From positions 62,001 through 126,000 of the forward strand of contig CAITDI010000061.1 of NCBI GenBank assembly GCA_903891095.1: DNA of 64,000 bases. The letters are read 5' to 3'. Numbering within the stretch: the stretch's first letter is position 1; every line of letters starts with the position of its first letter. The position numbers were made by a program, and so were the translations under genes. Positions 36,299 through 60,719 of the stretch are shown here, in pieces. The notes under the pieces are model-generated. The model was given only the letters and a program-made list of their open reading frames with translations. It had not been told where the DNA came from and did no database searches. Origin of the DNA: an uncultured bacterium (lineage in GTDB: Bacteria; Planctomycetota; Phycisphaerae; Phycisphaerales; SM1A02).

Positions 36299-37108
36299 AT
36301 GAGCACTGCAAACATCAGCCCCAAGGACGTGATGAAGCTCCGTGACCGCACCGGTCTCGGCATGGGCGAGTGCAAGAGCGCGCTCGTCGAGGCCAACGGC
36401 GACATGGACGCCGCGGAGAAGATCATCCGCGAGAAGATGAAGGGCAAGATGGACGCGCGCACCGACCGTGCCGCGGGCGAAGGCTGCATCTCCGTCGCCA
36501 TGGGCGGCGGCAAGGCCGCCATCGTCGAGGTCCGTTCGGAGACCGACTTCACCTCGCGCAACGAAGAGTTCCGCGCGATGGCTGCGAAGGTCGCCAATCT
36601 CGCGCTCGGCCACGGCGCCGGCGCGGTGACCGCTGACAAGGCGATCACCGACACCGTCGACGTCGTCCGTCTCAAGACCGGCGAGAACATCTCGTTCGCG
36701 CGCGGCACCGTCCTCCAGGGCGGCTCCTTCGCGTCGTACGTGCACCACGACGGCAAGCTCGGCGTCATCCTTCAGTACGAAGGTGGCGACATGCCCGCCG
36801 ACATCGGCACCGGCATCTGCCAGCACATCGCTGCTGCAGTGCCGACGCCGGCCGCGATCGACGCCGATGGCCTCGACAAGGCCCTCGTCGCCGCCAAGCG
36901 CGCTGAAGCCGTCGCCGAGGCGCAGGCCTCCGGCAAGCCGGCCCAGATCGCCGAGAAGATGGCGGAAGGCAAGATGCGCAAGTTCTTCGAGGAAGTCACC
37001 CTCCTCGGCCAGCCGTACGTTCGCGACGACAAGATGCAGGTCGGCCAGGTCGTGCCGAAGGGCGTCAAGCTCGTCAAGTTCGTGCGCGTGCGTCTCGGTC
37101 AGGAGTGA
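36299..37108 (+). CDS. tsf: Translation elongation factor Ts
   Basis: The 269-residue EF-Ts recycles EF-Tu-GDP. The N-terminal UBA part has LRDRTGLGMGECKSAL, then SETDFTSRNEEF (the TDFVARN-type motif in contact with EF-Tu), VHHDGKLGVILQYEG and the C-terminal LLGQPYVRDDKMQVGQV. It has the full bacterial domain order. It lies 51 bp after rpsB and is followed by a strong hairpin terminator. Confidence 0.97.
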   Translation: MSTANISPKDVMKLRDRTGLGMGECKSALVEANGDMDAAEKIIREKMKGKMDARTDRAAGEGCISVAMGGGKAAIVEVRSETDFTSRNEEFRAMAAKVANLALGHGAGAVTADKAITDTVDVVRLKTGENISFARGTVLQGGSFASYVHHDGKLGVILQYEGGDMPADIGTGICQHIAAAVPTPAAIDADGLDKALVAAKRAEAVAEAQASGKPAQIAEKMAEGKMRKFFEEVTLLGQPYVRDDKMQVGQVVPKGVKLVKFVRVRLGQE

Positions 37109-42975: not shown

Positions 42976-43881
42976 TTAGTCTCGGTGCTTGAGGAGCTGG
43001 AGAAGATACTGACCGTACTGGCTCTTGCCGATCTCGTGGCCGAGGCGCTCGAGTTGCGCATCGTCGATCCATCCGTTGCGCCAGCAGATTTCCTCGGGGC
43101 AGCAGATGCGCAGCCCCTGCCGCGCTTCGAGCGTCTGCACGAACTGACCCGCCTGCAGCAGCGTGTCGAACGTTCCCGTGTCGAGCCACGCGCTGCCGCG
43201 GCCGAGCAGCTGGACCTCGAGGTCGCCGCGATCGAGATACGCCTGGTTGACCGAGGTGATCTCGAGCTCGCCGCGCGCGGACGGCTTGACCGCCTTCGCG
43301 ATGTCGACCACATCCTCGTCGTAGAAATAGAGGCCAGTCACGGCGTAGTTCGACTTCGGCTGCCTGGGCTTCTCCTCGATCGACTTCGCACGCTTGTTGG
43401 CGTCGAACTCGACGACGCCGTACGCCTCGGGATTGGCGACGTGGTACGCGAACACGGTCGCCCCCGACTGCATCGCGCTCGCTGCGCGGAGACGGCGCTG
43501 GAAATCGGTCGCATAGAAGATGTTGTCGCCGAGCACGAGCGCGCTCGGCCGGCCGCGGACGAACTCCTCGCCGATGTGGAACGCCTGCGCGAGACCCTCG
43601 GGCTTGGGCTGCACCGCGAAGCGGATCTCGATGCCCCACGCCTTGCCGTCGCCGAGGAGCGAGTGGAACATCGGCGCATCGTGCGGCGTGGTTATGACCA
43701 TGACCTCGCGGATGCCCGCGAGGAGCAGCGTGCTGAGCGGGTAGTAGATCATCGGCTTGTCGTACACCGGGAGGAGCTGCTTGCTCGGTCCCTTGGTGAT
43801 CGGATGCAGACGGGTTCCGCTGCCGCCCGCGAGGATGATGCCGCGGCGGTTGCTGGGGGCTTCACTCGTTCCACTGTTCAT
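42976..43881 (-). CDS. rfbA: Glucose-1-phosphate thymidylyltransferase
   Basis: The 301-residue enzyme makes dTDP-glucose. [14 protein letters not shown] (16-29) is the nucleotide loop, [18 protein letters not shown] the next conserved part, [10 protein letters not shown] the metal/sugar site and [20 protein letters not shown] the signature. Its ATG overlaps the stop of the TPR gene (ATGA), with AAGGAC upstream inside that gene. It heads the rfbA-C-D-B block of the exosortase operon. Confidence 0.96.
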
Positions 43882-46800
43882 GGCTGATGTCCTTCCGCTG
43901 ATGCCTCGACGCGCGAGATCGCTGCGCCGATGCGCTGCACGCGCTCGGAGAGCGTACGCATCGGCATGAATGTTCCCTGCATGCGCGCGTCGACCCGGGC
44001 GAGCGCGCGGCGCGCCTCGGCGGTCGACTTGCGGGCGAGCTCGATCTCCGCCATTTCGACGGCGGCGAGCACGGGGTCGGGATTGGTCGACGCGATGGCG
44101 AGCGCCTCCGACGTGCGGCCGTCGGCGAGCAGCGCGCGCACGAGCGTGTCGAGGATGTCCGCCGAACCTTGCGCGCCTGCGACGGCGATCTGTGCAAGCG
44201 ACACCGCGGTCGCGCTGTCGCGGCGCGCGGCGACCAGCGCGTCAGCGAGGTTGTTGAGCGCGACGATGGCGGCGGGATTCTCGCGCAGCGCGTCGCCGAT
44301 GGCGGCGTCGCGCGTGGCACGCGCGGCGATCTCAGCGACATCCTTGCCGAACGCGCCGATCACCGGTTCGAACTGCGCGCGATACAGCTTTGCCGCCGCG
44401 TCGATGTCGCCCTTGGCCGCCGCGAGATCGGCACTGAGAATCGCTACGGGAACCTGGTCGCTGGCAAGCGCGGCCATCGCCTCGCTTGCGCGCGAGCACG
44501 CCTCGGCGGAGCCGCTGCGGCACATCGAGGTCCAAGCCGCGATGCACGCAGCGTGCGACACGGGATCGCTCTTGGCGACGCCTGCAATCTCGTCGATCGC
44601 CGCGATGCCCTGTTCCATCGGCAGCGCCTGCGCCGACTCGATCCACGCACCGATGATCTCGCCACGCCGCGCCTCGGAGACTCCAGCGAGTTCCGCGCGG
44701 ATATCGACGTAGCGACCACTGAGCACCGCCGCCGCGATCAGCGCGCGCACGGCGGAGCCGTCGGACGACTGCGTGAGGATTTCCTTCGCGATCGGCCGGA
44801 GAATCTCAAACGCGCGGCCAGGGCGACGACCGAGGATCTCGATCATTGCGCGCGCGGCGTCGACTTCGGCTGGCTCCGCGGTGGCCATCTTGCGCCACGC
44901 TGCGGCGCAGCTCGCGGCGTCCTCGGCGCGACCGGCGGCGATCGCCGTTTCGGTCGCGAGCTTGCCGATGCTTGCTTCGCTCGGCAGGCGCGTGAGCGCG
45001 CGCTGCGCGATGCGATAGGCGTCGTCCTTGCGGTCGGCAAGCAGATGGAACTGCGTCGCGACGCGCCACGCGAGTGGCGAGCCAGAATACGAACCGGTCA
45101 ACGCCGCCGCGCGGATGAGGGCAGCTTCGTCGGGCACGATGCGACCATCGGGTGTGGTCACGCTGTCGAGCAGCGCAATCGCCGCCGCGAGATCAGGCTG
45201 GCGGCCGCTCGCAGCCGCGAGGCTCCGCTGCAGCATCGCGCGACCCGCGGGATCGCCGACAAGGAGCGCGGCAGCAACGGTCGTCGCGTCGGCGTTGTCG
45301 GGCTCGAGCGTGAGTGCGCGCGCCAGCGCTTCGCGTGCCTTGGCGAGATCCCCGAGGCGGAGGTTGGTCCGCGCAAGCAGGAGTTCGTGTGCGGCGGTCG
45401 ACTCGGCCGCGGCGAGGCGTTCGGCGATCGCGAGCGCCGCGCGGGTATCGCCGAACGCGAGTTCGACGTTGGCGCGGACTTCATCAAAGCGTGCGCCGCC
45501 GAGTGCGTGCTCCGCCTTGTCGAGCGATGCGCGCGCGTCAGGCATGCGGCCGTCACGGGCGAGGAGCAGCGCCATCTCGCGCTCGACGAGCAACGCGCGG
45601 GTGTATTCGGCGCCTTCTGGACGGACATCGGCGGCGCCAGCTGGACCGCGGACGTTCTCAAGGATCGCCGTCGCCGCCGCGGTATCGCCCATCCGCTGGC
45701 GGATGCGCGCGAGCGCGATCGCGTCGACGATTTCCTTGCTGCGACCGACGAGCTGCTCGCGGATCTGCGCGGCCTCGAAGAGCTGTCCCTGGCGCGCCTT
45801 GAAATCAGCCACGCTGCGCTTGGACTGCAGATCGTCGCCGACGATGCGGATGTACGCCTCGAGTGCGCGCTCGGCGCCGGCGAAGTCGCCGGTCTGCTGG
45901 AGCGCGCTGACGAGCTGCGGGTAGATCGTCGCCGAACCAGGCTCCGCCTCAACGGCGCGCTGAAGCAGCTTCGCGGAACGGTCGAACTGCGCCGGCGTCT
46001 GCCGCTCGAAGAGCGCGGCGAGCGTGGTCAGCACGCTCGCCGAGTCGGGCGAGCGCATCGCGGCTGCGTCGAGCGCGGCCATCGACGACGCGAGCTTCGA
46101 GCGGTCCGTGCCGTGGAAGGTCATGTTCATCGCGGCCTCGGCGACGAGCGCGCGCAGCGATTCCGCGCCGATCGCGTCCTTCATCTGGGTGACGGCGGCG
46201 CGGACGAGGGTGTCGTCCTTCGCGCCCCACGCCTCTGCGCGCGAGAGCACGAAGATCGCCGTGTCGAGACCAGGCGCCGTAGAAAGCTCGGTTTCGAGCC
46301 ACGCGGCGAGTCCGTTGGGATCAACGAGCGGGCGGCGAAGGCGTTCGAGTCGCCGCCTGTCGGCGCCGGTCGCGGTCGCAAGCGCGCGATCGATGGAGCG
46401 AATCGCAGCGTCCTTGTCGCCCTGCGCGATGAATCGCTCGGCGATGACCGCGGCGAGCTCGGCACTGGACGCGCCCTGCTCCACGCCGCCGACGATCGCG
46501 CCTTGCAGCGAAGGATCGAGCGCGGACGCAGTCTTGAGCGCGAGCGAAAGACGGCCCGAACCGAGATCGCGGAACGACTTTCCGCCATCGGCAAGCGCGC
46601 TCTGCAGGATCTCGCGTGCCGCGTCGCGATCGCCGCGCGCGAGGAACACGTCGGCCACCAGCGGCGCGAGTTCGGCGGGGCCGAACTTGGCGTCGGGCCC
46701 GTTGAGTGCGGTCCAGAAGCGCCGCAGCGCCTCGGGAGAGTCGGTGCCGTACACGCCACCGCGCGTCGCGGGCTGGTAGTTCGCCTCGAGCGCAGCAGCC

Positions 46801-48224
46801 CACGCCTCGACCGCGAGCATCGCGACCGAGCCGTCGCCGCCGAGACCGTAGCGAACGAGGAGACTCTCAGCGATTCGGAACGCATCGCGCACGCGGCCCA
46901 GGCTCACGCTCGCGCGGATCGCGCGAACGCCAACAGGCTGGAACACATCGCCCGACTGCTCGAACGACCGGACGAGGATCGACTGCGCCTCGTCGAACTC
47001 GCCTGCTTCGATCATGACGTCGGCGAGGAGAATCGCCGCGACGGGATCCTTGGGGCAGACGCGGCCGGCGCCAGCGATGCGCTCGATGCGCGCGCGCGCT
47101 GGCTCGTCGGAGCAGGCCGCAGCGGCGGCGATGCGGAACGCGTCGGTCGTGCGAGGAGTCTCTGCGTTCGCCGATGCGTCTGCCGGCGCGTTCGCCTTGA
47201 CGAACGCCGCAGCCTCGCTGCGCTTGCCCGCGAGGTACAGCCCGGCAAACCGCAGGCGGAACACCGCCGCGTCGCTTGCGGGCGCGCTGGCAAACTTGGT
47301 GTTCAGCTCATCAAGGCGACCAGCGCGCAGGAGGCGCTGGCCTTCGATTTCGGATGCATCACCGGGACGCGAGAGCGCACCGCGCGAGTTCGCGATCGCC
47401 GCGTCGACAAGCGCGTCGCGCTCGGCCGCCGCGAATCCACCCGCTTCGATGCCACCGATGAGCGCCTCGAGCTGCTTGCGCTCGGCGACGCCAGCTGCGG
47501 CGATCGCGCGGAGCATCGAACGAGACTCGTCGCCGCGCCCCGTTTCGCGCAGCAGATCGGCCTCAAGCAAACGAAGACCAGGGTCGTCGTGGCCGACCGC
47601 GCCCGACTTCCATTCGCGAATGCGCGCAAGCCGACCTTCGGCGTCCGCGCCGGCGCGCTCGAGGCTCAGGAGCTCTGCGGATCGCCAGCGACCGTTGTTC
47701 GGCTCGATCGCCTGCAGCTCGCGCGACTTGGCGGCGGCCTCGGTGAACTTGCCCGTGAGGTTCAGCACCTCGAGCTCGATCTCACGCGCGCGCACGTCGT
47801 TGGGCTCGACCGCGAGCAGCCGATGAACGAGCGGCGGAATCTCGGGCAGCTGACCGAGTCCGATGTACGCCTCCAGCAAACCGCGCATCGCGCGGACATT
47901 CTTCTGATCCGCCGCCTGCACCGCGCGGAAGTAACCCGCTGCCGTCGACAGATGCCGACCGTTCGCCTCGGGGACGCGCATGCGGCATTCGGCGAGCGCG
48001 AGCACGACCTCGGCGTCGCGGTTGTTGCGCGCGGCGAACGCGAGCGGCTCGAGCGCGTTCTCGAACTTGCCCGCCGCGAAGAGCGTGAGGCCTTCCTGCT
48101 TCTTCTCAACGAGCTGCGCGTCGCGATGCGCGGTGCGGGCGATCATGCCCGCGGCGATGGCGACAGCAAGCCCGCCAGCGACGGCGCTCGAGAGGATGAT
48201 GCGGCGCTTGGTTCTCGGGTTCAC
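43878..48224 (-). CDS. Giant membrane-anchored TPR protein of the exosortase operon
   Basis: A GTG at 48224 overlaps the sugar transferase stop (GTGA), with GAGGAAG just upstream, and gives 1,448 residues. One N-terminal membrane helix (about 10-29, [19 protein letters not shown]) anchors it; the rest is almost entirely Ala/Glu/Arg/Leu-rich helical hairpins with TPR-like spacing (such as [36 protein letters not shown]). TPR proteins such as PrsT occur in proteobacterial PEP-CTERM loci, but are about 900 residues. It may be a scaffold for polymer synthesis or export across the envelope. Its stop overlaps the rfbA start. Confidence 0.85.
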
Positions 48225-49696
48225 TTGCTTCCTCGCGTTTCCTGTGCGGTTCCAGCGGAATCCGCGCTCTTCCGACCGATCCGCAGCATGCCCATCACTG
48301 TCATCACGATGATCCGCAGGTCGAGGAGCGGACCCTTCCGCTCGACATACTCGATGTCGTACTGAATCCACTCCTGGAAGTCCTTGCCAGGCGCACGCGT
48401 GCGCATGACCTGCCAGAGTCCGGTGATTCCGGGCCGCACGGACAGGCGCTTCTCGCGCCAGGCTGGGCAGAACTGATTCTCGTTGTCGGGGCTCGGGCGC
48501 GGCCCGACGACGCTCATCTCGCCCTTGAGCACGTTCCAGAACTGCGGGAATTCGTCGAGCTGGAAGCGGCGCAGGATCTTGCCCACGCGCGTCACGCGCG
48601 GGTCGTCGCGGATGAAGACCTGCGGTCCGTCGCAGAGATTCTGCTTGCGGAGCTCGGCGACGAGCGCCTCGGCGTTGCGGCGCATCGTGCGGAACTTCCA
48701 GCAGCGGAAGATCCCGCCGCCCTTGGTCTGCCGGCGATGGCCGAAGAAGATCGGGAATCCGTCGTCGATCACGACCGCAATCGCGATCGCGAGGATCAGC
48801 GGGCTGAACACGACGAGCACGCTCGCCGCGAACACCACGTCGAACGCGCGCTTGAACGGGCGATACCAGTTGCCGCGCGGAGCGGTTTCCTGCGATTCGC
48901 GTCCCGACTCGTGCGAGAAGATCTCGCCGATCGGACGCACACGCAGGGCGCTCGTGGTCGCACGGTCCCACACCACCGAAGGTCCGATTTCCTGCAGCGG
49001 CGCGTCGGCTCCACGCGAAATCCTCGGACGCTCGCCGATCCAGAGCGGACCGATGCAGCGATCGCGCTCGGCGATGCGGTCGGACGCGAGTCCAAACACG
49101 CCGTCGGCGAGCGGACGGATGCCCTCGATCACGCGATCGGGATGCGCCCACGCCGTCGCGATCGCGCGCACGAGCTGCTCGCGGTCCTGCTGGCTCGCGG
49201 AGTGAAATCCCCTGCCCGCACAGTCGATTGCGTCGATGCGAACGCGGCCGCGGACGCGCATCGCCGCCAGCGCGCGCTGCGCAGTCGCAGCCATCGCCCA
49301 CGCCTCGGCATGCGCGCGGCGACGCGCGATGTAGACCTGGCCCGACACGTTGCGATCGGCGTTGTACTTGCGCTCGATCTTCGCCACGTTGCCGTCGGCG
49401 CCGAAGAGAATGCGCTCGCGGTATCCGTCCTTGACGGGCTGCAGCAGGTGCACGCGCGTGCATTCCGCGCTGTTCCAGAGCAGCGTGTCGGCGATGGTCC
49501 GCAGGTCGAAGACCGCGAGCTGGCCCTCGTCGAGCAGCAGGAACACATCGGCGTCGGGGTCGGGCATCGTGCCGCTGCCGAGGCGCACGCACGACACGCC
49601 GAACGACGCCCAGTAGGCATCGTGGATCTCGATGGCGTCGAGGCCCCAGATGCGCCCTGTGGCGGCTGGCTGATGCGCAAGCGTGCCCGTGGGCAT
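48221..49696 (-). CDS. Polyprenyl-phosphate sugar-1-phosphate transferase with extra N-terminal domain
   Basis: The 491-residue protein has a C-terminal bacterial sugar transferase domain (about 280-480): RPFKRAFDVVFAASVLVV with a membrane helix, CWKFRTMRRNAE, QLDEFPQFWNVLKGEMSVVG and PRPS, and RPGITGLWQV. It links the first sugar phosphate to undecaprenyl phosphate. Residues 1-270 form an extra soluble domain (GLDAIEIHDAYWASFGVSCV at 18-37) that I do not recognise, in place of the usual four N-terminal membrane helices. It overlaps the Wzc-like gene by one base and the TPR gene by four. Confidence 0.88.
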   Translation of the reverse strand: MPTGTLAHQPAATGRIWGLDAIEIHDAYWASFGVSCVRLGSGTMPDPDADVFLLLDEGQLAVFDLRTIADTLLWNSAECTRVHLLQPVKDGYRERILFGADGNVAKIERKYNADRNVSGQVYIARRRAHAEAWAMAATAQRALAAMRVRGRVRIDAIDCAGRGFHSASQQDREQLVRAIATAWAHPDRVIEGIRPLADGVFGLASDRIAERDRCIGPLWIGERPRISRGADAPLQEIGPSVVWDRATTSALRVRPIGEIFSHESGRESQETAPRGNWYRPFKRAFDVVFAASVLVVFSPLILAIAIAVVIDDGFPIFFGHRRQTKGGGIFRCWKFRTMRRNAEALVAELRKQNLCDGPQVFIRDDPRVTRVGKILRRFQLDEFPQFWNVLKGEMSVVGPRPSPDNENQFCPAWREKRLSVRPGITGLWQVMRTRAPGKDFQEWIQYDIEYVERKGPLLDLRIIVMTVMGMLRIGRKSADSAGTAQETRGSK

Positions 49697-52014
49697 CAGG
49701 CGGCTCCCCTTCGCGGAGTCGCTTCGTTGGCGTTCATCACGCGGCCTGCGCCGAGCAGCGGATGCCGGTGCTTGACCGTTCCGTTGCCATCGAGCGCGCT
49801 GGCGACGTCGGTCGACATCTTGGAGATCGAGCCGTAGCGCATGCAGTCGGACTTGACCGCGTCGTTGAGCACGAGTCCGATGTAGTCGGATCCTGCCGAG
49901 CGAATCTCGGCGATCGACTCCGCCAGCCGACCGCGCGAACGGCCGCGGCGAATGACGAGCATCGCGCCGTCGCAGCTCGCGGCGACCGGAATCGCCTCGA
50001 CGCTCGCGGTCATCGGACCCGCGTCGACGATGATGATGTCAAAGCGATCGCGCAGCGTGCGCAGCAACCGGCGCATCGCGCCGACCTGGACATGGCTCGC
50101 GGAGACATTCGGATCGGTACCGATCGGCAGCAGCCAGACGCCAGGCTGCGCCTCGACCAGCTCGTCGCCGAGCTCGCCCCGGCGAAGCACCTCGCGCACG
50201 CCGGGCGCGTGCAGGCGGTCAAGCATGCCGCTCATCGCGCGACCGATGAAGTCGCAGTCGACGATCACGGGACGGTGACCGGCGCGCGCGTAGCTGATCG
50301 CGAGCGACAGCGCGACGGTGGTCTTGCCGTCGCCCTGGGACGGGCTGGTCACGAGCATCGCGTAGCCCTCGCCAGGAGCGCGACGCGACTCGATCTTGTT
50401 GCGGAGACGGTCCACGCAGTTGATCGCGAGATCATGCGCGAACGGATCGCTTGCGGCCTGCGACATGTCGGGGATCACGCCGAGCCACTGCAGCCCGTGC
50501 GAGTCGTTGGCCAGCTGCGACGCGCGGAACGCGCGCGGACTGATCGTGCCGATCAGGAAGAACAGACCGAACGAAGCACCCAAACCGCCGAGGAGCCCCA
50601 GCGACGCGAACTGCACACGCTTGTCCGACGCAGGCGTCGGGAGCTGGCTCGCGTAGCGCGCGACGCTCAGACGGCCGCGGCGGATGCTGTCCTGCTCGCG
50701 CTCGAGTTCACCGATGCGCACGGCAAAGCTCTGCTCGGACTTGCGCGACTCCTCGATGCGGCGATCGGTCTCGGTGAGCCGGGCGAGCAGCATGTTCGCC
50801 TGGTCGATCTCGGTGCGCAGCGCCTGATGCTCGGCGGAGAGCCTGGTGGCCTGCCGGCGCGCAGCGCCGAGGTTCAGGTCGCGGCCGTGGCCTTCCGCCC
50901 ACATCGTGCACGCGCCGGCGCGGGCGGCCGCGAGCTGCGCTTCGAGCGAGCTCACTTCGCGGGCTGCCATTTCGTACACGCGATGCTCAGGCTTGTAGGT
51001 CTTGGGAAGCGCGCTGAAGCGAATCTTTGCCGCATCGACCGCGCGACGAAGGCCGGGGAGCGACGGATCGATCGCGTCGAGCTCGGCGAGGGTCGGCTCG
51101 AGGCGAAGCTCGTCCGGCGGCGAGGCGGCGGAGTCGCCGCCCACGGCAGGCCGCGCGCCTTCCTTCGCCTTCGCGAGATCCCACTGGCGCTCGATGTCCT
51201 GCTGGAGCGACTTGTTCGTGGCCAGCTTCTCCTCGAGGTCGCGCATCTTGGTCACGCGGGCCTCGATCAGCGACGCAAGATCGGCGCTGCCGTACGGCGT
51301 GTCCTTGAGGACCGCGATGCGCTCCTCGGCGAACTTGGTCTCGTCGCGGCGCGCGAGCGTCATCATCTCGCGGAGCGAGGCGATCTTGCGGCTGTAGACG
51401 GTCTCGGCGCTCGGACCGTAGATATCGAGGTACGCGTCCACGATCCAGTTGGCGACGGGCGCGGGGATCGCCTTGTCGGGCGACTCGAACCGCACTTCGA
51501 GCATGCTGCCCGAGCGCGGGGTGGTCACGACGAGACCATCGGCAAGCGCCTGCAGGCCCTGGTCCGCGCCGTGCGCCGCGAAGAACTTGCGGACAGCGGC
51601 TGCTTCCACTGCGGCTTCGTTCGGGCGCTCCGCCTTGGCGCGCACCGTGGGCTCGCCGCGCGCGGCGGCGTCAGCGACCGCAGCGAACACGCGCGGATCG
51701 GTCAGCAACACGACCTGCTGCGACACGTAGGCGTCGTAGTTGTCCATCGCCTTGGTCTCGGGCATGTCCTCGGCGAGGATCGTGTCGAGCTTGGCGTCGA
51801 TCTTGACGTACGCCGTCGCCGCGTACTTGACGGGCGCGACATAGAAACCGCCCGCCGCGAGCAGCGCGCCGAGCGTGACTCCCGTGAGCACGCACCATCC
51901 CCAGCGGTTCTGCAGGCGATCCTGCACGAGCGCCATGGGATTCGGCGCCTGCGAGGCCGGCGTGGCGGCGGGTGCGGTCATGGTCGAGAGTGCGGTCGTG
52001 TCGTTGTCCATCAT
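49696..52014 (-). CDS. Wzc/GumC-like chain-length protein with cytoplasmic ATPase domain
   Basis: The 772-residue protein has two membrane helices (about 40-60 and 468-490) flanking a long periplasmic coiled-coil region (about 200-460), as in Wzz/Wzc polysaccharide co-polymerases. The C-terminal BY-kinase-like ATPase has Walker A SPSQGDGKTT (557-566), Walker A' VIVDCD (583-588) and Walker B IIIVDAG (660-666). Unlike true Wzc kinases there is no Tyr after residue 727, so no C-terminal Tyr cluster for autophosphorylation, and Walker A' lacks the following Arg. It controls chain length or export in the operon. The start ATGATG overlaps the EpsI stop. Confidence 0.9.
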   Translation of the reverse strand: MMDNDTTALSTMTAPAATPASQAPNPMALVQDRLQNRWGWCVLTGVTLGALLAAGGFYVAPVKYAATAYVKIDAKLDTILAEDMPETKAMDNYDAYVSQQVVLLTDPRVFAAVADAAARGEPTVRAKAERPNEAAVEAAAVRKFFAAHGADQGLQALADGLVVTTPRSGSMLEVRFESPDKAIPAPVANWIVDAYLDIYGPSAETVYSRKIASLREMMTLARRDETKFAEERIAVLKDTPYGSADLASLIEARVTKMRDLEEKLATNKSLQQDIERQWDLAKAKEGARPAVGGDSAASPPDELRLEPTLAELDAIDPSLPGLRRAVDAAKIRFSALPKTYKPEHRVYEMAAREVSSLEAQLAAARAGACTMWAEGHGRDLNLGAARRQATRLSAEHQALRTEIDQANMLLARLTETDRRIEESRKSEQSFAVRIGELEREQDSIRRGRLSVARYASQLPTPASDKRVQFASLGLLGGLGASFGLFFLIGTISPRAFRASQLANDSHGLQWLGVIPDMSQAASDPFAHDLAINCVDRLRNKIESRRAPGEGYAMLVTSPSQGDGKTTVALSLAISYARAGHRPVIVDCDFIGRAMSGMLDRLHAPGVREVLRRGELGDELVEAQPGVWLLPIGTDPNVSASHVQVGAMRRLLRTLRDRFDIIIVDAGPMTASVEAIPVAASCDGAMLVIRRGRSRGRLAESIAEIRSAGSDYIGLVLNDAVKSDCMRYGSISKMSTDVASALDGNGTVKHRHPLLGAGRVMNANEATPRRGAA

Positions 52015-52823
52015 GGCTCGTCTCCCGAGGTTGCCTGCGATACGCCGTGCAACTTCGTGTGCTCCATCCCGTCAGTCTTCGGATCGGTATCTGCGATCGC
52101 CTCGGTCTGCGCGACGGGCAGGCCCTTGAGCGCACGCACGCAGTCCGAGGGAATCAGTGCAAGAAGTTCATTCGCCGTCGCCGCGACATCGTCCGCAGCG
52201 GGCCATCCATCCATCACCACCTGGATCTGTCCGACGCCGAGGCGCGAGATCTCGAGCTTGGCCACGCGCGAACGCAGCTGCTCGATGTCCGAGCTGATCG
52301 CCGCGTCGGGCAGCACGAAGAAGCCGATCACCGACACCTCGCGCAGCGCGCCGGTGCCGTCGACCGAGCTGAATCGATACAGCGTCGCGCGGAAGCGCTC
52401 GCCGTTGAGCTCCAGCGCAACGCTGTCGTGCCCGCCCTCGCGCGCATGCCAGCCGGACGAGGGGTAGCACGACGGCGGGTAGTGGCCGTTCATGTCACGC
52501 ACGTCGCCGCAGTGGATCACGCCGAGCGTCGCGTGACGACCGGTGCCGAGCTCCACGAATCGACGCGAGAGCACGGCCGTCGGCATCAGGATCTCCGTCG
52601 CAGCCGCGGGGAGCGGGCAATCCGTGCCCACCCAGCGGCCCGTCATGAACGGAACCTGCTCGAGGCTCATGCGGATCGACTGCGCGCGCGCAACCGCCTC
52701 GCCGCGGTCACCAGTCTGCCGCGACAACGCAGTTCCGCCCGCAAGCAGCGCCGCGAGGCAAAGCACAGGCGCCGCGCGATTGGCGCGGTGGATCAGGCGG
52801 AGTGTTGCTAGCGAGAGCTTCAT
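52011..52823 (-). CDS. EpsI-type exosortase-associated protein
   Basis: The 270-residue product starts at the ATG at 52823 overlapping the exosortase stop (ATGA); an alternative start lies 18 bases upstream inside the exosortase gene. Residues 15-34 are an N-terminal membrane helix. HYPPSCYPSSGW (about 114-125) is the conserved EpsI motif, and the mature part is beta-rich. EpsI proteins sit next to or fused with exosortases in many bacteria and are thought to help in extracellular polysaccharide production; the exact role is unknown. A low-complexity tail (about 245-270) ends the protein. Confidence 0.85.
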   Translation of the reverse strand: MKLSLATLRLIHRANRAAPVLCLAALLAGGTALSRQTGDRGEAVARAQSIRMSLEQVPFMTGRWVGTDCPLPAAATEILMPTAVLSRRFVELGTGRHATLGVIHCGDVRDMNGHYPPSCYPSSGWHAREGGHDSVALELNGERFRATLYRFSSVDGTGALREVSVIGFFVLPDAAISSDIEQLRSRVAKLEISRLGVGQIQVVMDGWPAADDVAATANELLALIPSDCVRALKGLPVAQTEAIADTDPKTDGMEHTKLHGVSQATSGDEP

Positions 52824-53686
52824 GCCTGCAGGAACCTCCACGTGAATACCGGAAGGTCAAGCCACCGCATGAAGCGGATCAGTCCCAGCAGCATCACGAT
52901 CGCCAGCGGCAGCATGAGCCAGCCAGCGACATCGTGGAACCGTTCCGCGTCCTGCGCCGATTCGTACGCATAGGCAAGCGCCGTCGGCACGAGGCGCACG
53001 ACGTTGCAGACGATCGCGATCACCGGGCTCGCGACCAGGAGCGCGATGCGCGCCATCGGCCGCAGCGGCACGCTGAAGACAAAGGCAAAGAAGGTCAGCG
53101 CCAGCGCGAACACCATGCGCATGCCGTCGCACGCTTCGCCGACGAAGATCGAGCGACCGGCGATCTGGATCGAGTTGCCCGCGCGCTCGGTCGCGATGCC
53201 GAGGACATCGAGCACTTCCTGCGTGACGCCGACGGCGAGCGACTGCAGCGGACCCGCAAGCCACTTGCGGACTTCCGCAGGCACGGGGATCAGGAACAGC
53301 AGCGCGAGGAACACGGGGAAGAACTGCCGAAGGACCTCGGTCCCCGCCACCGCGACTGCGCACGAGCAGAGCGCAAGCACCGCGCCGAGATGAACCGCAG
53401 CGCGCGTATCGGTCTGTTCGCCCCACCACGCGAGCGCCACGGCGGCGCCGACGATCGGGAGCGCAGAGAGGCTCGGACGACGCATCACGAACTGCATGCG
53501 CGACCGACGAAGCCACGCGAGATACGCGGCCACCACGGGCACGAGAAAGATGTAGCCGTTGTCGGTCCTGCGCTCCGCCTGCAGATACAGATCCGTCCAC
53601 GCGGGCCAGAACGCATAGAGCGCCGCCGCGATCAACGCGCCGACGACCCATGCATCGCGGGAGTTCCAGGTGCGGTAGGCGTTCAC
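52820..53686 (-). CDS. Exosortase
   Basis: A GTG at 53686, overlapping the preceding stop (GTGA), gives 288 residues. About eight membrane helices are visible. The exosortase catalytic triad is present: Cys186 in VGEACDGMR, Arg231 in NVVRLVPTA and His251 in RFHDVAGW. LIPVPAEVRKWLAGPLQSLA (133-152) is the usual mid-protein motif, and LQAERRTDNGYIFLVPVVA (34-52) the N-terminal one. It is a membrane transpeptidase that removes the C-terminal sorting helix from exported proteins. The neighbouring EpsI gene and EPS genes are typical. A likely local substrate is the protein at 59997-60719. Confidence 0.93.
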   Translation of the reverse strand: MNAYRTWNSRDAWVVGALIAAALYAFWPAWTDLYLQAERRTDNGYIFLVPVVAAYLAWLRRSRMQFVMRRPSLSALPIVGAAVALAWWGEQTDTRAAVHLGAVLALCSCAVAVAGTEVLRQFFPVFLALLFLIPVPAEVRKWLAGPLQSLAVGVTQEVLDVLGIATERAGNSIQIAGRSIFVGEACDGMRMVFALALTFFAFVFSVPLRPMARIALLVASPVIAIVCNVVRLVPTALAYAYESAQDAERFHDVAGWLMLPLAIVMLLGLIRFMRWLDLPVFTWRFLQA

Positions 53687-54714
53687 GACGCACCGCCTTC
53701 GGTGCCGCTCTTTGCCGCCGATCCGAGCGCGCCAAAGACCTCGTCGACGATCAGGTAGCCGTTGGGGATATGACTCGCCGGCGGCACGACGCTGCGCGCC
53801 ACGACCGCGTCGGAGCCGACCGCGCTGCCAGGCAGCAGCACGGAGTCGATCACGAGCGCGCGAGCGCCCACGGTCGCGCCGCGGCAGACGATGCTGCTTC
53901 CGCGCACGCACGCGTCGGGATGAACGATCGCGCCCGCGGCGATCGCGGGCGCGCTTGCGCCACGCATCATGGCCGTCGCGTGCAGGTAGCTCTCGCGGTC
54001 GGCGATCCGGCAGGATTCCTCAGCGCCAAAGCTCGCGCAGACCTTCATGCCCGCCGCGGAGGCCGCGGGGACGAGCTGCTCCTTGAGATCGAAGTAGCCG
54101 ATCGTGGGCACGAGTGCGAGCGCTGCGCGAGAGAAGTACGACACGCCCGCTGGCGTCGCGTCGACGGCCGCGCCGATGAGCGCCTCCGTTTCAGGCCGGA
54201 TCGCAGCGACAAACGCGCGCATGTCGAAATTCGGGGCGTTGGAGCACTCGATCACGATCACGCCGGATCCACGGGCCTCGGCTTCGGTGCGCGCCTCGAA
54301 CGCGCGCCACGCGTCGCCCACCGTGCCCGCGGGGCCGCGATGCGCGGCGGTATCCACGCGGAGCTCGATGGCGATGGACTCCGCCGAGATCCCCTCGGGC
54401 AGCGCGATGCGGCCGTAGAACTCGGTGTCACCTGCGTCGGAAGTCGCGATCACCACGCGCCCGCGGAAGCCAGCGTGGGCAAGCAGCGCGATCCAGCGCT
54501 CGGAAATGCTCTGCTCCTCGTCGATCGGAAGCGCCGCGGTCGGAAGTCCAAGGCTCGTCGCGAACTGCGCAGACCGCGAGGCCGCGCTGCGACCCGCGAG
54601 CAGAACCGCGAGCGTCGCGGGGCAACTCGCCGCGCCAACAGATGGCTGCAACGACAGCGATCGCTCATGCAGAGCGACAGCCTTTGCTCCTGTCGAGTTG
54701 GAAGTCGGGATCAT
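53683..54714 (-). CDS. Degenerate NDP-sugar pyrophosphorylase-like protein with hexapeptide domain
   Basis: The ATG at 54714 gives 343 residues. Residues 32-230 look like a nucleotidyltransferase fold: LAVLLAGRSAA, RGPAGTVGDAWR, VIVIECSNAPNFD, VSYFSRAAL and YFDLKEQLVPAA match the spacing of mannose-1-P guanylyltransferases. The essential GGxGTRL loop is missing (AGRSAASRS instead), so it is probably inactive or altered. Residues 255-310 are left-handed beta-helix hexapeptides (AGAIVHPDACVRGSSIVCRG). It is the first gene of the coupled exosortase operon, and its stop overlaps the exosortase GTG. A regulatory or scaffold role is possible. Confidence 0.7.
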   Translation of the reverse strand: MIPTSNSTGAKAVALHERSLSLQPSVGAASCPATLAVLLAGRSAASRSAQFATSLGLPTAALPIDEEQSISERWIALLAHAGFRGRVVIATSDAGDTEFYGRIALPEGISAESIAIELRVDTAAHRGPAGTVGDAWRAFEARTEAEARGSGVIVIECSNAPNFDMRAFVAAIRPETEALIGAAVDATPAGVSYFSRAALALVPTIGYFDLKEQLVPAASAAGMKVCASFGAEESCRIADRESYLHATAMMRGASAPAIAAGAIVHPDACVRGSSIVCRGATVGARALVIDSVLLPGSAVGSDAVVARSVVPPASHIPNGYLIVDEVFGALGSAAKSGTEGGAS

Positions 54715-54918: not shown

Positions 54919-56301
54919 TTATGCGCCAACAGCGCTACCGACGGCGCGACGGCGCGCCACCGCCGCCTCCGACGCCGCGACCGCACGCGAGTGGATCCGC
55001 TGGCGCTCCTCCGCCGCAGTTTCGGCGAGGAATCCGCCGATCGCGACCGTCAGGTACCAGATCATGATCGTCTGCCCGAAGTAGCTCACGCCGAGAAAGA
55101 TCATCGACTGCGCGAAGATCGACGCGCCGACGCCGTAGACCAGAAGATGCTGCGACGAGCCTGGCGGCAGGCGACGGAGCCAGAATCCGCACGCACGCAG
55201 CGCCAGCACAATGGTCGCGATCAGCGCCAGCATCGCCCAGATGCCGCCACGGACACCCTCCAGAATGAACTGGTTCGTGACGTCCTGCAGGCCGTAGCCC
55301 CAGTGCCGCGTCGAGAGCGTGCCCATGAGCCACCACTCGCCGACATGGTTGATGGCTTGGTCGATCAGATGGTACCGGTGGTATCCCGTGCTTCCGCCGA
55401 CGAGATCGACGCGCGCGATGAGGTGCCAGATGCCGTGCTTCATCACGAAGTGCAGGGCCGCCGCACCGACCAGCGCCGCCATCCACACCAGCCGCAGCGA
55501 GCGCCAGTACGGATACATGGCGAACGCAGCGAGCACGAAGATCAATGCGGCGGCCGGCGTGCTCGATGCGCAGCAGACCACGATCGCGGACGCGAGCGCG
55601 GTGCCGCCGATCGCGACGCGTTTGCCGAGCTTTCCGCGCCAATTCGCGATCCACATGGGCAGGATCGCGACGAAGTAGCAGCCCGCGAGAATGGAGTGCG
55701 CAAACGCGCCCTGGCAGCGGAGCTTGCCTTCACGCACCTCCGTCATCAGCGGGATTCCGCCAAAGACCGAGAGCATGTTGCGGCCGGTCGATTTCTCGAT
55801 GCCGAAGATCACGACGACCGGCAGGCAGACCGCGAGCGACTCGACCGCGAGCTTGCGAATGTCCTCGATCGACCGCAGCGACGCACGCGCGACGAGAAAC
55901 AGCCCGAGCGTGTCGAACGCGCTGCCGATCTGCTGGATGAGGATCCCGAACTGCCCGGTGGTGACGGGCATGAGCGCGACTTTGGCGAGCGTTCCCGCGA
56001 CGACCAGCGCATCGATTGCGCCGTAACGCACGGTAAACAGGCGTGAAGTTGCCAGCAACCGCAGCAACGCGACCATCACGCCAATCCGCAGGAATGCGAA
56101 GTCCGCGCCTGCAAACACGACCCGCTGCGCGGTCGGGATGTACACCGCGACGCCGATCAGCACGAGGGGAATGGCCCGCATCGGGCCAAGCAGCAGCAGG
56201 ATGCAGGCGATGACCAGCGCGACCAGTCCCACGGGATGGACCGTGTTCTGATTCACGTAGTCGAAACTGCTCGCGGCAAAGTCCATGCGTCGCGGTTGCA
56301 T
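54919..56301 (-). CDS. O-antigen ligase/polymerase-like membrane protein
   Basis: The 460-residue protein, starting after GAGG, has about 11 hydrophobic segments. The long extracytoplasmic loop around 320-370 includes GGSTGYHRYHLIDQAINHVG and WWLMGTLSTRHWGYGLQD, the pattern of O-antigen ligase/Wzy-type polymerases, which join repeat units from undecaprenyl carriers. It probably acts as polymerase for the polymer made by this cluster. The C terminus is an Ala/Arg-rich cytoplasmic tail. It is divergent from the acetyltransferase gene at 56542, with 240 bp between, which presumably holds both promoters. Confidence 0.82.
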   Translation of the reverse strand: MQPRRMDFAASSFDYVNQNTVHPVGLVALVIACILLLLGPMRAIPLVLIGVAVYIPTAQRVVFAGADFAFLRIGVMVALLRLLATSRLFTVRYGAIDALVVAGTLAKVALMPVTTGQFGILIQQIGSAFDTLGLFLVARASLRSIEDIRKLAVESLAVCLPVVVIFGIEKSTGRNMLSVFGGIPLMTEVREGKLRCQGAFAHSILAGCYFVAILPMWIANWRGKLGKRVAIGGTALASAIVVCCASSTPAAALIFVLAAFAMYPYWRSLRLVWMAALVGAAALHFVMKHGIWHLIARVDLVGGSTGYHRYHLIDQAINHVGEWWLMGTLSTRHWGYGLQDVTNQFILEGVRGGIWAMLALIATIVLALRACGFWLRRLPPGSSQHLLVYGVGASIFAQSMIFLGVSYFGQTIMIWYLTVAIGGFLAETAAEERQRIHSRAVAASEAAVARRRAVGSAVGA

Positions 56302-56541
56302 CGGCGTCCTCGGTGCGCCGGGTCATCCGCGATCGGCGGTCCGTCGGTCCTGCCGTCGGGAGGTAGGACCTGTGCGGGCAGGTCCGCTTCGCACGACCGC
56401 GGTGAGGCTGCGCGGATCGGCGCGTTCCGTTCGGAAACCGCTGCAAAACCGCCGATGAAGCATCGCCGCGCACTCGCGTCGGTCCCGCAAAGCCCCATGC
56501 ACGCCAACGCAAGCAACCTCCGTCCCGGTGAAGTCCGACTG

Positions 56542-57174
56542 ATGACCCGCTACCAGCGCGGCTGGCGGATCGTCCGCGCGTGGCGCCGGCTGCGCGCGGA
56601 ACTGCACTCGCTCGCTCTGCGCGCGCGTGGCGCGAGCATCGGCAAGGGCGTGTTCTTCGGCACGCATTCAACGGTGTACGGTCATCGCGGACTCGCGATC
56701 GACGACGACGTCAACCTCGGGCACCGCGCGCGAATCGACACGCACCTCACCGAGCGCGGACAGGGTCGCTTCGCGATCGGCAGCGGCACGCGCATCGGCA
56801 ACGACTTTCACGGCGGCGCAGCGTTGAGCGTGACCATCGGTCGCGATTGCATGGTCGCCTCGGGCGGCACGATCCTCGACCACGACCACGACTTCTCCGA
56901 TCCGTCGGACCCGCACCGCGCGCACGAAGGCGTCGTGGCCTCGCCGGTCGTGATCGGCGACCGCGTCTTTCTCGGCGAGCGCGTGACGGTGCTCAAGGGC
57001 GTGCACATCGGCGACTGCTGCGTCGTCGGCGCGCACTCGGTGGTGTCGCGCGACCTGCCGCCATACACCATGGCCGCTGGAATCCCCGCACGCCCGATTT
57101 CCCGCTGGAACCTCGAGCTCGGCCGTTGGGAGCGCCTCGCAACCCCGCAGTCCGTGCATGAGGGGGCGCACTGA
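56542..57174 (+). CDS. Hexapeptide-repeat O-acetyltransferase
   Basis: The start at 56542 follows GGTGAAG by 8-9 bases and gives 210 residues; an ATG at 56497 is an alternative. It is a left-handed beta-helix acyltransferase of the WcaF/CysE type: repeats such as GASIGKGVFFG, AIGSGTRIGNDFHGGA, TIGRDCMVASGGTILDHDHD (with the catalytic His region) and GDRVFLGERVTVLKGVHIGD. PYTMAAGIPARPI is the common C-terminal motif. It probably adds acetyl groups to a sugar of the polymer. The stop overlaps the next ATG by one base (TGATG). Confidence 0.85.
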   Translation: MTRYQRGWRIVRAWRRLRAELHSLALRARGASIGKGVFFGTHSTVYGHRGLAIDDDVNLGHRARIDTHLTERGQGRFAIGSGTRIGNDFHGGAALSVTIGRDCMVASGGTILDHDHDFSDPSDPHRAHEGVVASPVVIGDRVFLGERVTVLKGVHIGDCCVVGAHSVVSRDLPPYTMAAGIPARPISRWNLELGRWERLATPQSVHEGAH

Positions 57175-58487
57175 TGCGCGTCCTGCTCATCGCACACTAT
57201 TTCCCGCCGGACGGCGGCGCGGGAAGCCAGCGCCCCGCCTCGTTCGCTCAGCACCTGCCTTCGCTCGGCGCAGAGCTCACGGTGGTGTGCCGCCAGCTCG
57301 ACGACTCCAAGCGCGGCGCCTACGAACCAGCCGATCGAACGCTGCTCGCGCGCACTTCCGCGGCGAACATCCGCCGCGCGGAGCTGCAATCGGGCGAGAC
57401 ATGGACCAACGCGCTGCTTCGCGAAGCGCGCGCTGCCATCCGCGACGAACGCCCCGATGTCGTGCTCGTCACGCTCAGCCCGTTCGAGCATGCTGCGATC
57501 GGATTCGCGCTGCGCGCCGAGTTCGGCGTCCCCGTCGTCCTCGACCTGCGCGATCCGTGGGCGCTCGACGGCTGGCACACCTACCGCCATCACTTCGCGT
57601 GGCGCGCGGCGTTCAACACCATGCGCAGCGCGCTCGATTCCGCCGACGGCGTGATCATGAACGTGCCGGGCGCGCGTGACGCCGCACAGGCGATCGCTCC
57701 GCGGCGCGGCAAGCTCGAGTACGGCGTCGTCACCAACGGCTGGGAAGCCGCCGATTTCGCCGCCAACGCCGACGTCGCTCCTGCAGACAAGCTGCGGATC
57801 CGCTTCGCCGGAACCTTCGTCTGCCGCTTCATGCGCGAGCGCAGCGTGCCGCGGCGCGTGCGCGCGTACTTCCGCGGTCGCGGCGAGAACATCGACGAAC
57901 GCGGCCGTTCGCCGCTGTTCCTGCTTGCCGCGATCCGCGCGCTGCGCGAGTCGCACGGCGCTGGTGGCATGGGGCACGACTTCACGCTCGAGATCGCCGG
58001 CACCAAGGAAGCGGAAACCCAGCAGATCATCGACGAAAGCGGATGCGCCGACGCCGTCCGCCAACTCGGGTACCTGCCGCATGACGAGAGCGCACGGTTC
58101 ATCGCCGGCGCCGACGCCCTGCTGCTGCCGATGCACGGCCTCGCGCGTGGCGCGCGTGCGCGCATGGTTCCCGGCAAACTCTACGAGTACTTCGGCACGG
58201 GTCGCCCTGTCCTCGGGCTTTGCCCCGACGGCGACGCGCGCGAGTGGATCGCACGCGACCCGCGCTCGCGCGTGGCGTACCCGACCGACGTCGCGTCGAT
58301 CGCGCGAAACCTCGCCGAGATGCACGCGATGTGGCGCAACGGCGAGCTCGCGCACTCGCGCCGAGCGGCATGGACGGAGGAGTTCTCGCGCCAGACGCAG
58401 GCTGCGCGACTTCTCGCCTATCTCGAACGGGTTGCGAAGCCCTCGACGCCGACGCGGTCAACCGTGCCGAGCATGGCCGCACGCTGA
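57174..58487 (+). CDS. Family 4 glycosyltransferase
   Basis: The 437-residue GT-B protein starts RVLLIAHYFPPDGGAGSQRP, the classical Gly-rich N-terminal loop of family 4 enzymes. The C-terminal half has LRIRFAGTFV, LEIAGTKEAE, VRQLGYLPHDESARFIAGAD and GKLYEYFGTGRPVLGLCPDG, the donor-binding region with the conserved Glu. It is translationally coupled to the acetyltransferase (one-base overlap). Its 3' end overlaps the convergent asparagine-synthetase-like gene by 30 bp. Confidence 0.87.
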   Translation: MRVLLIAHYFPPDGGAGSQRPASFAQHLPSLGAELTVVCRQLDDSKRGAYEPADRTLLARTSAANIRRAELQSGETWTNALLREARAAIRDERPDVVLVTLSPFEHAAIGFALRAEFGVPVVLDLRDPWALDGWHTYRHHFAWRAAFNTMRSALDSADGVIMNVPGARDAAQAIAPRRGKLEYGVVTNGWEAADFAANADVAPADKLRIRFAGTFVCRFMRERSVPRRVRAYFRGRGENIDERGRSPLFLLAAIRALRESHGAGGMGHDFTLEIAGTKEAETQQIIDESGCADAVRQLGYLPHDESARFIAGADALLLPMHGLARGARARMVPGKLYEYFGTGRPVLGLCPDGDAREWIARDPRSRVAYPTDVASIARNLAEMHAMWRNGELAHSRRAAWTEEFSRQTQAARLLAYLERVAKPSTPTRSTVPSMAAR

Positions 58488-59819
58488 GCCACCGGCGCAA
58501 AGGCGACCCGACGTTCCCAACCTGCAATCAAGCGTGCAGTCGAGCGCCGCAATCAGGCCGATCGCCGCGCGATTGAACGACTTGCGGTCACCGCCTTCGA
58601 CATCCGCATCGGCTGCGAGCCGCGCCAACGGCTCGGGAAGCTCGCTGCAGAACCGCTGCCACGCAAACTTCGATCGCATCGTGCGCAGTGGATTGCGCAT
58701 CCATCGCGGCACGCGATTGTCCTCGCCGGTCGCAAACGGAATCCCGGAATCATCGAGCGACTCCAGCGCGATCTCGCGCCAGTCGCGCCGGATCGCGCGC
58801 TCCATCGGAATGGCAGCGATCGCGCGGCACAGATCCAGGTCGTACAGCGGCGCCACCACGCGCTCCTCAGGCAGCAACCCGAACGCCGAGCTCGCGATGC
58901 CGCGACGGCTCCAGTGCAGCAGGCTGAACATGCCCAGCGGGTTCGGCTGGCCTTCGAGGCCACGCATCACGCGACTGAATTCGTGCAGCACCTCGTCGTG
59001 CGAGGCGATCGCGATTCCCGCGTTGCGCGCGCCGTCGATCCAACGACGCGACGCGCCGCCGGCATGACCGACCATCCACTCGCAAAGCTCGTCGATGCGC
59101 CGCTCGTTCCAAAGCCGAATGGGCTCCTCGCCCAGCAAGGACCCCGTCGAAAGTACACCAGCGCCGATGCCGTCGGTCACGCGCACATTCATGGCGCGCA
59201 CCTGCGTCGCGATGGGCACGAACCAGCCGTGCTCCAGCGACTGGAACGACTGCTTCATGTGGCGGCCGACTTCGCGCGCGCCGTCGAATGGCAGCGGCGT
59301 GACGCGCTCGATCGGGATTTCGAGATGCTCGGCGAGCCTGCATGCGATCGCTGCGTCGGACCGCGAGCCAGACTGGTCCAGCGTCAGGGCGAGCTCGGGC
59401 CGCGCACCGAGCCTTCGCAGCCCGAGTGCAATGAGCCGCGAATCTCGGCCTCCGCTCAGCAGACAGACAAGTGTGTCGTCAGGCGTGCGTCGCTCGATCG
59501 CGTCGAGTACCAACGAGAGCAGCTCGCCGTCGCGAGGCGCATGCGCGAGCGCAAATCCGGTCGAATCAATCTCGGTCGCACTGATCCCTGCGATCGCAGT
59601 GCGGCCGCCGATCGCGGTGCCAAGCGTGAGCACCGTCGCGAGTCCAATCGGGTCGATCTGGTCGCCGTCCTTGACGAGCGCGTCGATCGTCGGCGCCGTC
59701 GCATGCGGCGTCTCTCCGCGGAAGAACCGCGGACGAAGGTCCACCGCCCCCGACGGACCAGCGCCGGGCAACGTGGACGAATGGACGAACGTGGACGCAG
59801 ACGCCATGAATTCACTCAT
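58458..59819 (-). CDS. Asparagine-synthetase-like protein lacking the glutaminase domain
   Basis: The ATG at 59819 gives 453 residues; a TTG two codons upstream is an alternative. CLLSGGRDSRLI (119-130) is the PP-loop of the AsnB synthetase domain that activates a carboxylate with ATP. VTDGIGAGVLSTGSL and LLPEERVVAPLYDLDLCRAI match the C-terminal synthetase part. The N-terminal Ntn glutaminase (which needs Cys2) is absent, so ammonia would come from elsewhere or it has another role. AsnB-like amidotransferases often lie in exosortase/EPS loci. Its tail is Cys/Gly-rich and overlaps the convergent glycosyltransferase. Confidence 0.8.
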   Translation of the reverse strand: MSEFMASASTFVHSSTLPGAGPSGAVDLRPRFFRGETPHATAPTIDALVKDGDQIDPIGLATVLTLGTAIGGRTAIAGISATEIDSTGFALAHAPRDGELLSLVLDAIERRTPDDTLVCLLSGGRDSRLIALGLRRLGARPELALTLDQSGSRSDAAIACRLAEHLEIPIERVTPLPFDGAREVGRHMKQSFQSLEHGWFVPIATQVRAMNVRVTDGIGAGVLSTGSLLGEEPIRLWNERRIDELCEWMVGHAGGASRRWIDGARNAGIAIASHDEVLHEFSRVMRGLEGQPNPLGMFSLLHWSRRGIASSAFGLLPEERVVAPLYDLDLCRAIAAIPMERAIRRDWREIALESLDDSGIPFATGEDNRVPRWMRNPLRTMRSKFAWQRFCSELPEPLARLAADADVEGGDRKSFNRAAIGLIAALDCTLDCRLGTSGRLCAGGSACGHARHG

Positions 59820-59931
59820 CGGCAAGGGGCAAATTCACGTTTGCGCGACTTCAGAGATTGAGGCAAAAACAAGCCTCGAACGCCGTCGTCTTGCGCGCCA
59901 TGGACCGAGGCACCGCGCCAAGGTCCGCAAA

Positions 59932-59981
59932 AAATCACACGGCCGCCGATCGATCGGCGGCCGTGCGAGAATCGTATTTTT
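59932..59981. terminator. Perfect-palindrome bidirectional terminator
   Basis: A perfect 28-bp palindrome (59938-59965, arms CACGGCCGCCGATC and GATCGGCGGCCGTG) is preceded by AAAAAATCA and followed by a TATTTTTT tract a few bases later. On the minus strand the stem is followed at once by TGATTTTTT, an ideal terminator for the sorting-signal protein gene ending at 59997. The remainder of the 177-bp gap is featureless. Confidence 0.88.
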
Positions 59982-59996: not shown

Positions 59997-60719
59997 TCAC
60001 TTCACGCGGCGACGCATGAGGCCCACGCCGATCAGGCCGAGACCGGCCAGCACCGCAGGCGCGCCGATCGGAACGACCATGAGCTGGTCCTGTGCCGACG
60101 GATTGGTGAGACCGTAGAGGTTCGTGCCCATCGTGCCGAAGCCACCCTCACCGAGCGACGCGAGCATGGATGCCGCTGTCCGGTAGGTGCCCGACAACTG
60201 GTTGACCTGGAAGGCTCCGCGATCGAGGCCGAGCTGGGTCACCGCTTCCGACGCGGTGCGAGCATCGATGTTCTCGTGCGTGATCTCCCAAAGCGCAAGT
60301 TGGAACGCGCCGACCGACTGCGCGCCGCTGAGGCCCGCGTAGTAGCGACGGTAGAGATCGTTCACCAGCGTGGCCTTGACCGGGCCCATCGGCCCAGGAG
60401 CATTCACCGGCGCATCCATGTCCGGCACCTGCGAGGGCGGAAGGATGGTGTAGGTGTAGCTGTTGCCCGCAGTCACGCCCTCGAACAACTGCACGCAGAA
60501 GGTCGTGCGCTGCTGTCCATAGACGCTCCACTGCTGCGAGCCGATCGCGACGTTGCTAAACGTCGCAGACGACCGCGCGCTCCAGGTGAGACGGTTGTTG
60601 TAGCGAAGGCCCGCGGTCGACGGGTTTCCGTGTCCGAGGTAGGACATCGTGACGCTGTCGGCGGACGCCGAAGCGGCGACAGCGAGAGCAGCGAGGACGG
60701 TGAGACCGATCGACTTCAT
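59997..60719 (-). CDS. Secreted protein with PEP-CTERM-like (VPIGAP) sorting signal
   Basis: The 240-residue protein has an N-terminal signal peptide (1-20, ending ASASA) and a typical tripartite C-terminal sorting signal: VPIGAP (216-221), a hydrophobic helix (222-234) and RRR (236-238). This is the layout recognised by exosortases, with VPxxxP in place of PEP. The body is beta-rich and has FCVQLFEGV and FQLALWEITHEN, similar to thioester-type or TQXA-like adhesin domains seen in exported proteins (a Cys and a Gln are present, but the link is unproved). AAGGGG lies 9 bases before the ATG. It is the best local substrate for the exosortase at 52820-53686. Confidence 0.88.
   Translation of the reverse strand: MKSIGLTVLAALAVAASASADSVTMSYLGHGNPSTAGLRYNNRLTWSARSSATFSNVAIGSQQWSVYGQQRTTFCVQLFEGVTAGNSYTYTILPPSQVPDMDAPVNAPGPMGPVKATLVNDLYRRYYAGLSGAQSVGAFQLALWEITHENIDARTASEAVTQLGLDRGAFQVNQLSGTYRTAASMLASLGEGGFGTMGTNLYGLTNPSAQDQLMVVPIGAPAVLAGLGLIGVGLMRRRVK

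Follow-up and report, generated by a model that had tools for sequence, protein, structure and literature searches.

Thioester domains (TEDs; PF08341), such as those of SfbI, Cpa, CpTIE and BaTIE, were reported exclusively in Gram-positive bacteria by Walden 2015 (PMC4450167). With regard to protein sorting, dedicated systems have been described in which a rhombosortase serves one linked GlyGly-CTERM target (PMC3237569), and work on cyanoexosortase B lends support to exosortases being connected with the attachment of polysaccharide and with biofilm (PMC12188702). Exosortases, PEP-CTERM-like tails, dedicated sorting pairs and thioester domains are all known kinds; their combination, looked for as the term 'thioester domain' together with either 'PEP-CTERM' or 'planctomycet', was not encountered in the literature searched, in which few subscription papers were covered.

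The window analyzed here, a stretch of 64,000 nucleotides from an uncultured member of the Phycisphaerales, harbors a short gene whose product (hereafter, the target) and neighboring terminator have the following features:

59997–60719, minus strand: target, a putative exosortase-anchored thioester-domain protein of 240 amino acids (open reading frame, homologs, AlphaFold2, VIA-align)
60657–60719, minus strand: signal-peptide-like N-terminus, residues 1–21 (sequence; low-confidence helix 6–16 in the AlphaFold2 model)
60495–60497, minus strand: Cys75 in TFCVQ, the predicted thioester-forming cysteine (published motif, homolog conservation)
60288–60302, minus strand: helix motif AFQLALWEIT with Gln140 and Trp144, a TQxx-hydrophobic-W motif that is not bond-forming (within model helix 132–148)
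60084–60092, minus strand: Q210-D211-Q212, Gln210 being the predicted thioester-forming glutamine (alignment, VIA-align)
60000–60077, minus strand: class-A sorting tail, residues 215–240, VVPIGAPAVLAGLGLIGVGLMRRRVK (profile A1, ortholog conservation)
59935–59968, minus strand: intrinsic terminator straight after the target stop codon (15-pair stem and T run)

The translation read from this frame ends in ...AQDQLMVVPIGAPAVLAGLGLIGVGLMRRRVK, and a signal peptide, a C-terminal motif, a hydrophobic helix and a basic cluster were all present in it (sequence; model helix 221–237). The terminator, with a fold of -34.9 kcal/mol and a z of -3.4, lies right behind the stop codon, and therefore the target is probably transcribed alone, from a monocistronic message.

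An exosortase with an intact Cys-Arg-His triad had been placed in the neighborhood by the original prediction, and it was recovered here as XA, separated from the target by approximately 6.1 kb and embedded in an exopolysaccharide (EPS) cluster:

52820–53911, minus strand: exosortase XA, with intact Cys/Arg/His (Pfam PF09721, E 1.7e-47; above TIGR02602)
52011–52841, minus strand: EpsI-type exosortase-associated protein (PF11984, E 3.7e-9)
49696–52014, minus strand: chain-length determinant / tyrosine autokinase of the EPS cluster (TIGR01007, TIGR03018)
48221–49696, minus strand: EPS sugar transferase (PF02397, E 2e-60)
54919–59825, strand unassigned: genes between XA and the target, encoding a polymerase-type polytopic protein, a hexapeptide acyltransferase, a glycosyltransferase and an asparagine-synthase-like protein (Pfam)

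The catalytic Cys, Arg and His of XA are located in EACDGMR, NVVRL and FHDVAGW, respectively, and the enzyme belongs to the EpsH family carrying these residues; it falls under the cut-off of each named Xrt subtype, with 116 bits against XrtA (cut-off, 208) and 108 bits against XrtD (cut-off, 400). Archaeosortase B, whose signal is VPXXXP-CTERM (TIGR04144), was dropped as a counterpart, since XA showed no match at E values up to 1; VPIGAP resembles VPXXXP in letters only. The autokinase gene occupies the same position by XA in relatives, and the gene order around XA and the tail gene is preserved in G008 and G013. Elsewhere in the window, a very long TPR-like protein is encoded within the EPS cluster (43878–48400, minus strand), between the sugar transferase and rfbA, and rpsB and tsf (35270–37108) are found about 1 kb away from where the gene group running into this cluster begins.

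The three-part C-terminal signal that had been proposed from the sequence, with VPIGAP before the helix and a triple-arginine end, was confirmed together with its open reading frame and proved to be conserved. In particular, congeneric orthologs in 11 genomes (G001, G002, G003, G006, G008, G009 and G011–G015), with overall identities of 54–66%, keep the pattern VP[IV]GAP-LAGLGLxGxGxxRRR, that is, motif, LAGLGLxG helix and RRR end alike. Homologs outside the genus show VPLPAP, VPIPMP or VPLPTP at this place; their helix is again of the LAGxGLxG type and their end RRRxK. This form found in other genera, VP[LIV]PxP...LAGxGLxG....RRRxK, was designated class A. Judged by these tails, VPIGAP derives from VPLPAP within a single genus and is that genus's version of VP[LIV]PxP. 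Class-A tails were also attached to unrelated bodies in G005 (L227), G108, G201 and G203, which points to the tail as a module. The body of L227, on contig C134 of G005, has no Pfam match, and another class-A tail adjoins it.

Such conservation bears on the view that the VPIGAP end has simply drifted in an unprocessed protein, which would then be a plain membrane anchor encoded near an EPS locus. The second proline is indeed absent from its usual place, and the target remains under the cut-off of the PEP-CTERM model (TIGR02595, 14.6 bits; cut-off, 16); nevertheless, motif, helix and RRR end have all been kept in the 11 orthologs, and orthologs are missing where XA is missing. We regard drift as very improbable.

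In its own 3.6 Mb genome, the target was picked up by a 26-residue tail profile, A1, at an E value of 6e-11; no other strong class-A tail was found there with profiles A1 and A4, for which the next-best match was a VPAPS tail (E 0.004). The original prediction would have counted the lack of further proteins with this tail against itself. That lack stands, and it is accounted for by the concept of a dedicated sorting system, with one enzyme and one linked target (PMC3237569): the only class-A tail of the genome is encoded 6.1 kb from XA. What had been overlooked was the nature of the target body and a second exosortase, XB, located on contig C82, with its 30-odd candidate substrates of the VPAPGA type. 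XA and XB match each other at about 50 bits and their respective orthologs at hundreds of bits, and are thus distant. The 30-odd other tails of the genome are all of another type, VPAPGAxALLGLAGLxGRRRR, and 37 matches were obtained with profile A2. A search of the contigs for loci related to the target returned only three, and its paralogs on contigs C89 and C17 bear VPAPGA-type tails. The XA-less genome G004 contains 58 class-B tails, and a class-A tail was not found in it. From XA-less genomes in which XB is the sole exosortase detected, we infer that XB pairs with the VPAPGA tails.

The distribution of class-A tails and XA was then compared over 181 genomes of the family, XA being called at a best match of at least 100 bits and class A with profile A1 at E ≤1e-4. 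Both were present in 34 genomes, XA only in eight, the tail only in six and neither in 133 (Fisher p = 4.6e-23, a value which, like the others given here, ignores shared ancestry below the genus level, genomes of the same genus not being independent). Counted by genus, the corresponding numbers were 17/3/3/22 (p 8.6e-7). Since A1 contained tails from the test genera, the comparison was run again on a held-out set lacking the target's genus and the genomes used for training (16/7/6/130, p 3.8e-12), and also with profile A4, whose training was limited to the genus plus three sequences from elsewhere and which generalizes less well (outside the genus, tail in 6/9 versus 1/12 genomes, p 0.016). 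The exceptions, i.e., the six tails without a detected XA and the eight XA genomes without a strong class-A tail, include some incomplete assemblies; in G006, for instance, the target is split across two contig ends, one of which bears XA, and several of the tail-only genomes have XA-bearing congeners.

Tail gene and XA are also often close to each other. The distance is 7–9 kb in G000, G008, G013, G003 and G015 and shorter in G001, where XA is truncated, and in other genera the tail gene lies within 15 kb of XA in G021, G024, G117, G176, G177 and G114. Within genus g14, the genomes G176 (the same record as L067, TMED75), G177 and G178 encode both a class-A-tailed thioester-domain protein and an XA that reads EACNGMR. 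In G028 (L213, 6948–8204), XA reads EAYNGMR, its catalytic Cys being replaced by Tyr, and, unlike in its three congeners, a class-A tail was not found by profile search; this natural loss is a single-genome anecdote, for which a sequencing error in the metagenome assembly is possible.

Co-occurrence, closeness and the missing tail where XA has lost its Cys together support the class-A tail as the substrate signal of XA rather than of XB, and in this genus XA looks dedicated to the target alone. The suggestion that the tail may define the recognition motif of this exosortase subtype therefore holds for the pairing of tail and enzyme, but not for VPIGAP itself, which is one genus's form of a motif that reads VP[LIV]P[AMTV]P in the other XA-bearing genera. 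Alternatively, the tail could be an ordinary PEP-CTERM variant that is processed by the main exosortase, XB, alongside the VPAPGA proteins, the closeness of XA being incidental. The three-part architecture of the target, the VPAPGA tails of its same-fold paralogs L002 and L003 and the detection of the target by TIGR02595 would all fit this explanation; however, class-A tails track XA and not XB over the 181 genomes, and in XA-less genomes such as G004, with its many class-B tails, no class-A tail was found. Processing by XB is, in our view, improbable.

With regard to the body of the target, homologs were found in 34 of 61 relatives, and an AlphaFold2 model based on 70 homologs reached a pLDDT of 88.6 and a pTM of 0.83. 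Foldseek searches of the PDB with this model gave nothing significant, a PDB sequence profile search with the homolog alignment gave one antibody chance match only, and the Pfam TED family (PF08341) did not match the target. In a second look with VIA-align 2, the top 12 rows were all solved bacterial thioester domains (Z 8.7–11.7), followed by an unrelated entry at Z 3.5; they comprised BaTIE (6fwv, Z 11.7), 6fx6 (Z 10.2), 5a0d (Z 9.7, rmsd 3.2 over 147), Cpa (2xic, Z 9.5) and SfbI (5a0l, Z 9.0). Furthermore, several homologs scored at or near the PF08341 cut-off of 22 bits (L057, 22.0; L065, 21.0; L053, 20.7), which was exceeded at seven places in six relatives. On the basis of the model and of VIA-align, the body is predicted to be a thioester domain by fold, with a beta-barrel and a three-helix bundle.

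The thioester-domain motifs map to TF-C75-VQ, AF-Q140-LALW144 and A-Q210-DQL, the first of which matches the published motif [YFL]C-hydrophobic-hydrophilic (PMC6194298, PMC4450167). Gln140, in AFQLALWE, was rejected as the thioester-forming glutamine, given that the helix motif is dispensable for the bond (PMC6194298, PMC4450167), and the pair was therefore reassigned to Cys75 and Gln210, which are expected to form the bond. Gln210 was assigned from the motif and from alignment ends rather than from coordinates: judged by where the VIA alignment to 5a0g ends, CpTIE Gln267 corresponds to about residue 210. Q210 and D211 are invariant in the 70-sequence alignment; Cys75 is present in 74/76 homologs and accompanied by Gln210 in 73/76, both losses of Cys75 occurring in XA-less genomes (G004 and G007). 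In one paralog group of the target's genus (L003, L069, L071, L072, L073, L079–L083, L088 and L051), Gln140 has given way to Cys or Asn, the Cys75/Gln210 pair being retained, and L003 and its kin hold both Cys75 and Cys140. The idea that paralogs with Cys or Asn at position 140 are dead was discarded, Gln140 lying outside the predicted bond-forming pair. Tandem arrangements were also observed: four thioester-domain homologs lie in a row in L066 (8738–12764, Phycisphaerae MAG-51), and a similar four-homolog tandem lies about 12 kb from XA in L253 (G114).

These patterns also have to be weighed against a thioester-domain fold without a reactive bond, in which case the target would be an XA-anchored, non-covalent matrix or ligand-binding domain. 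Gln140 is changed to Cys, Asn or Ala in some paralogs and the Cys is lost in the G004 and G007 homologs, and therefore the scaffold can persist without all motifs; in addition, a second Cys is present in many homologs. Against this, Cys75 and Gln210 are retained together in nearly all homologs, Gln140 is not needed for the bond, and Cys75 is the sole Cys of the entire target, so that an intramolecular disulphide cannot explain its conservation. A fold that has lost its chemistry thus appears unlikely, though less so than processing by XB.

The locus shares features with several described systems and departs from each of them. The target resembles TEDs (SfbI, Cpa, CpTIE, BaTIE) in its predicted fold, the [YFL]C motif, the helix Q..(I/V/L)W and the C-terminal Gln motif, but differs from the Gram-positive members in its diderm host and in an exosortase tail instead of LPXTG; moreover, Gln210 lies six residues upstream of the sorting motif, and therefore no isopeptide or ester domains form a stalk. 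With PEP-CTERM/exosortase systems (PF09721, TIGR02595; XrtA, XrtD) it has in common a signal peptide, a motif-helix-basic tail and an exosortase with EpsI in an EPS locus, whereas VP[IV]GAP and XA fall below the PEP-CTERM and all named Xrt cut-offs, respectively, and there is one dedicated substrate. The class-A tails of other genera start with VPLPA, as in VPLPA-CTERM/XrtD (TIGR03370, TIGR04152), to whose enzyme XA is related at the 108 bits mentioned above, well under the 400 required; however, TIGR03370 gave no match to the target and 13.4 to L067 (cut-off, 25.35), and EpsI is a separate gene here. Finally, one enzyme, one target and nearby genes are reminiscent of rhombosortase/GlyGly-CTERM, but the enzyme family is another, the genes are seven apart rather than adjacent, and other genera have several class-A substrates.

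Taken together, we consider it likely that the target is a Sec-exported thioester domain with an immediate class-A tail, the sole dedicated substrate of XA in the genus, and a covalent adhesin or matrix cross-linker; the export signal, the thioester-domain fold, the conserved Cys75 and Gln210, the tail type and the pairing with XA rather than XB are the parts backed by computation. The target would be exported by Sec, and Cys75 and Gln210 would form the internal thioester during folding. XA would recognize the class-A tail, cut within or after VP[IV]GAP and attach the C-terminus thus exposed to an acceptor linked to EPS or lipid. A partner would then react with the target extracellularly, its amine (or hydroxyl) attacking the thioester to yield an irreversible bond, and the target would thereby act as a short covalent glue joining the EPS or cell envelope to another matrix component or surface. 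Since Gln210 is so near the motif, the reactive site would be close to whatever XA attaches the target to, in contrast to the long-stalked Gram-positive proteins; with this, a matrix or EPS cross-linker seems to agree better than a long-reach host adhesin. More tentatively, the arrangement may represent a covalent matrix staple of diderms, with both ends covalent: the exosortase would fix the C-terminus of a stalkless TED to an exopolysaccharide or lipid, and the thioester would bond a second polymer or surface. This fuller version is possible, with the odds somewhat against it.

The predicted 'chemical harpoon' fold suggests that the target acts as a covalent glue at the polysaccharide coat or close to it. 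Thioester domains of this kind were described only as Gram-positive and sortase-anchored; here, the predicted domain is coupled to a diderm's exosortase pathway. Being expected to react covalently, the target could trap its partner, and a genome that encodes two exosortases whose tail classes can be told apart, one of them with an apparently single substrate, makes exosortase specificity, as well as the acceptor, directly testable.
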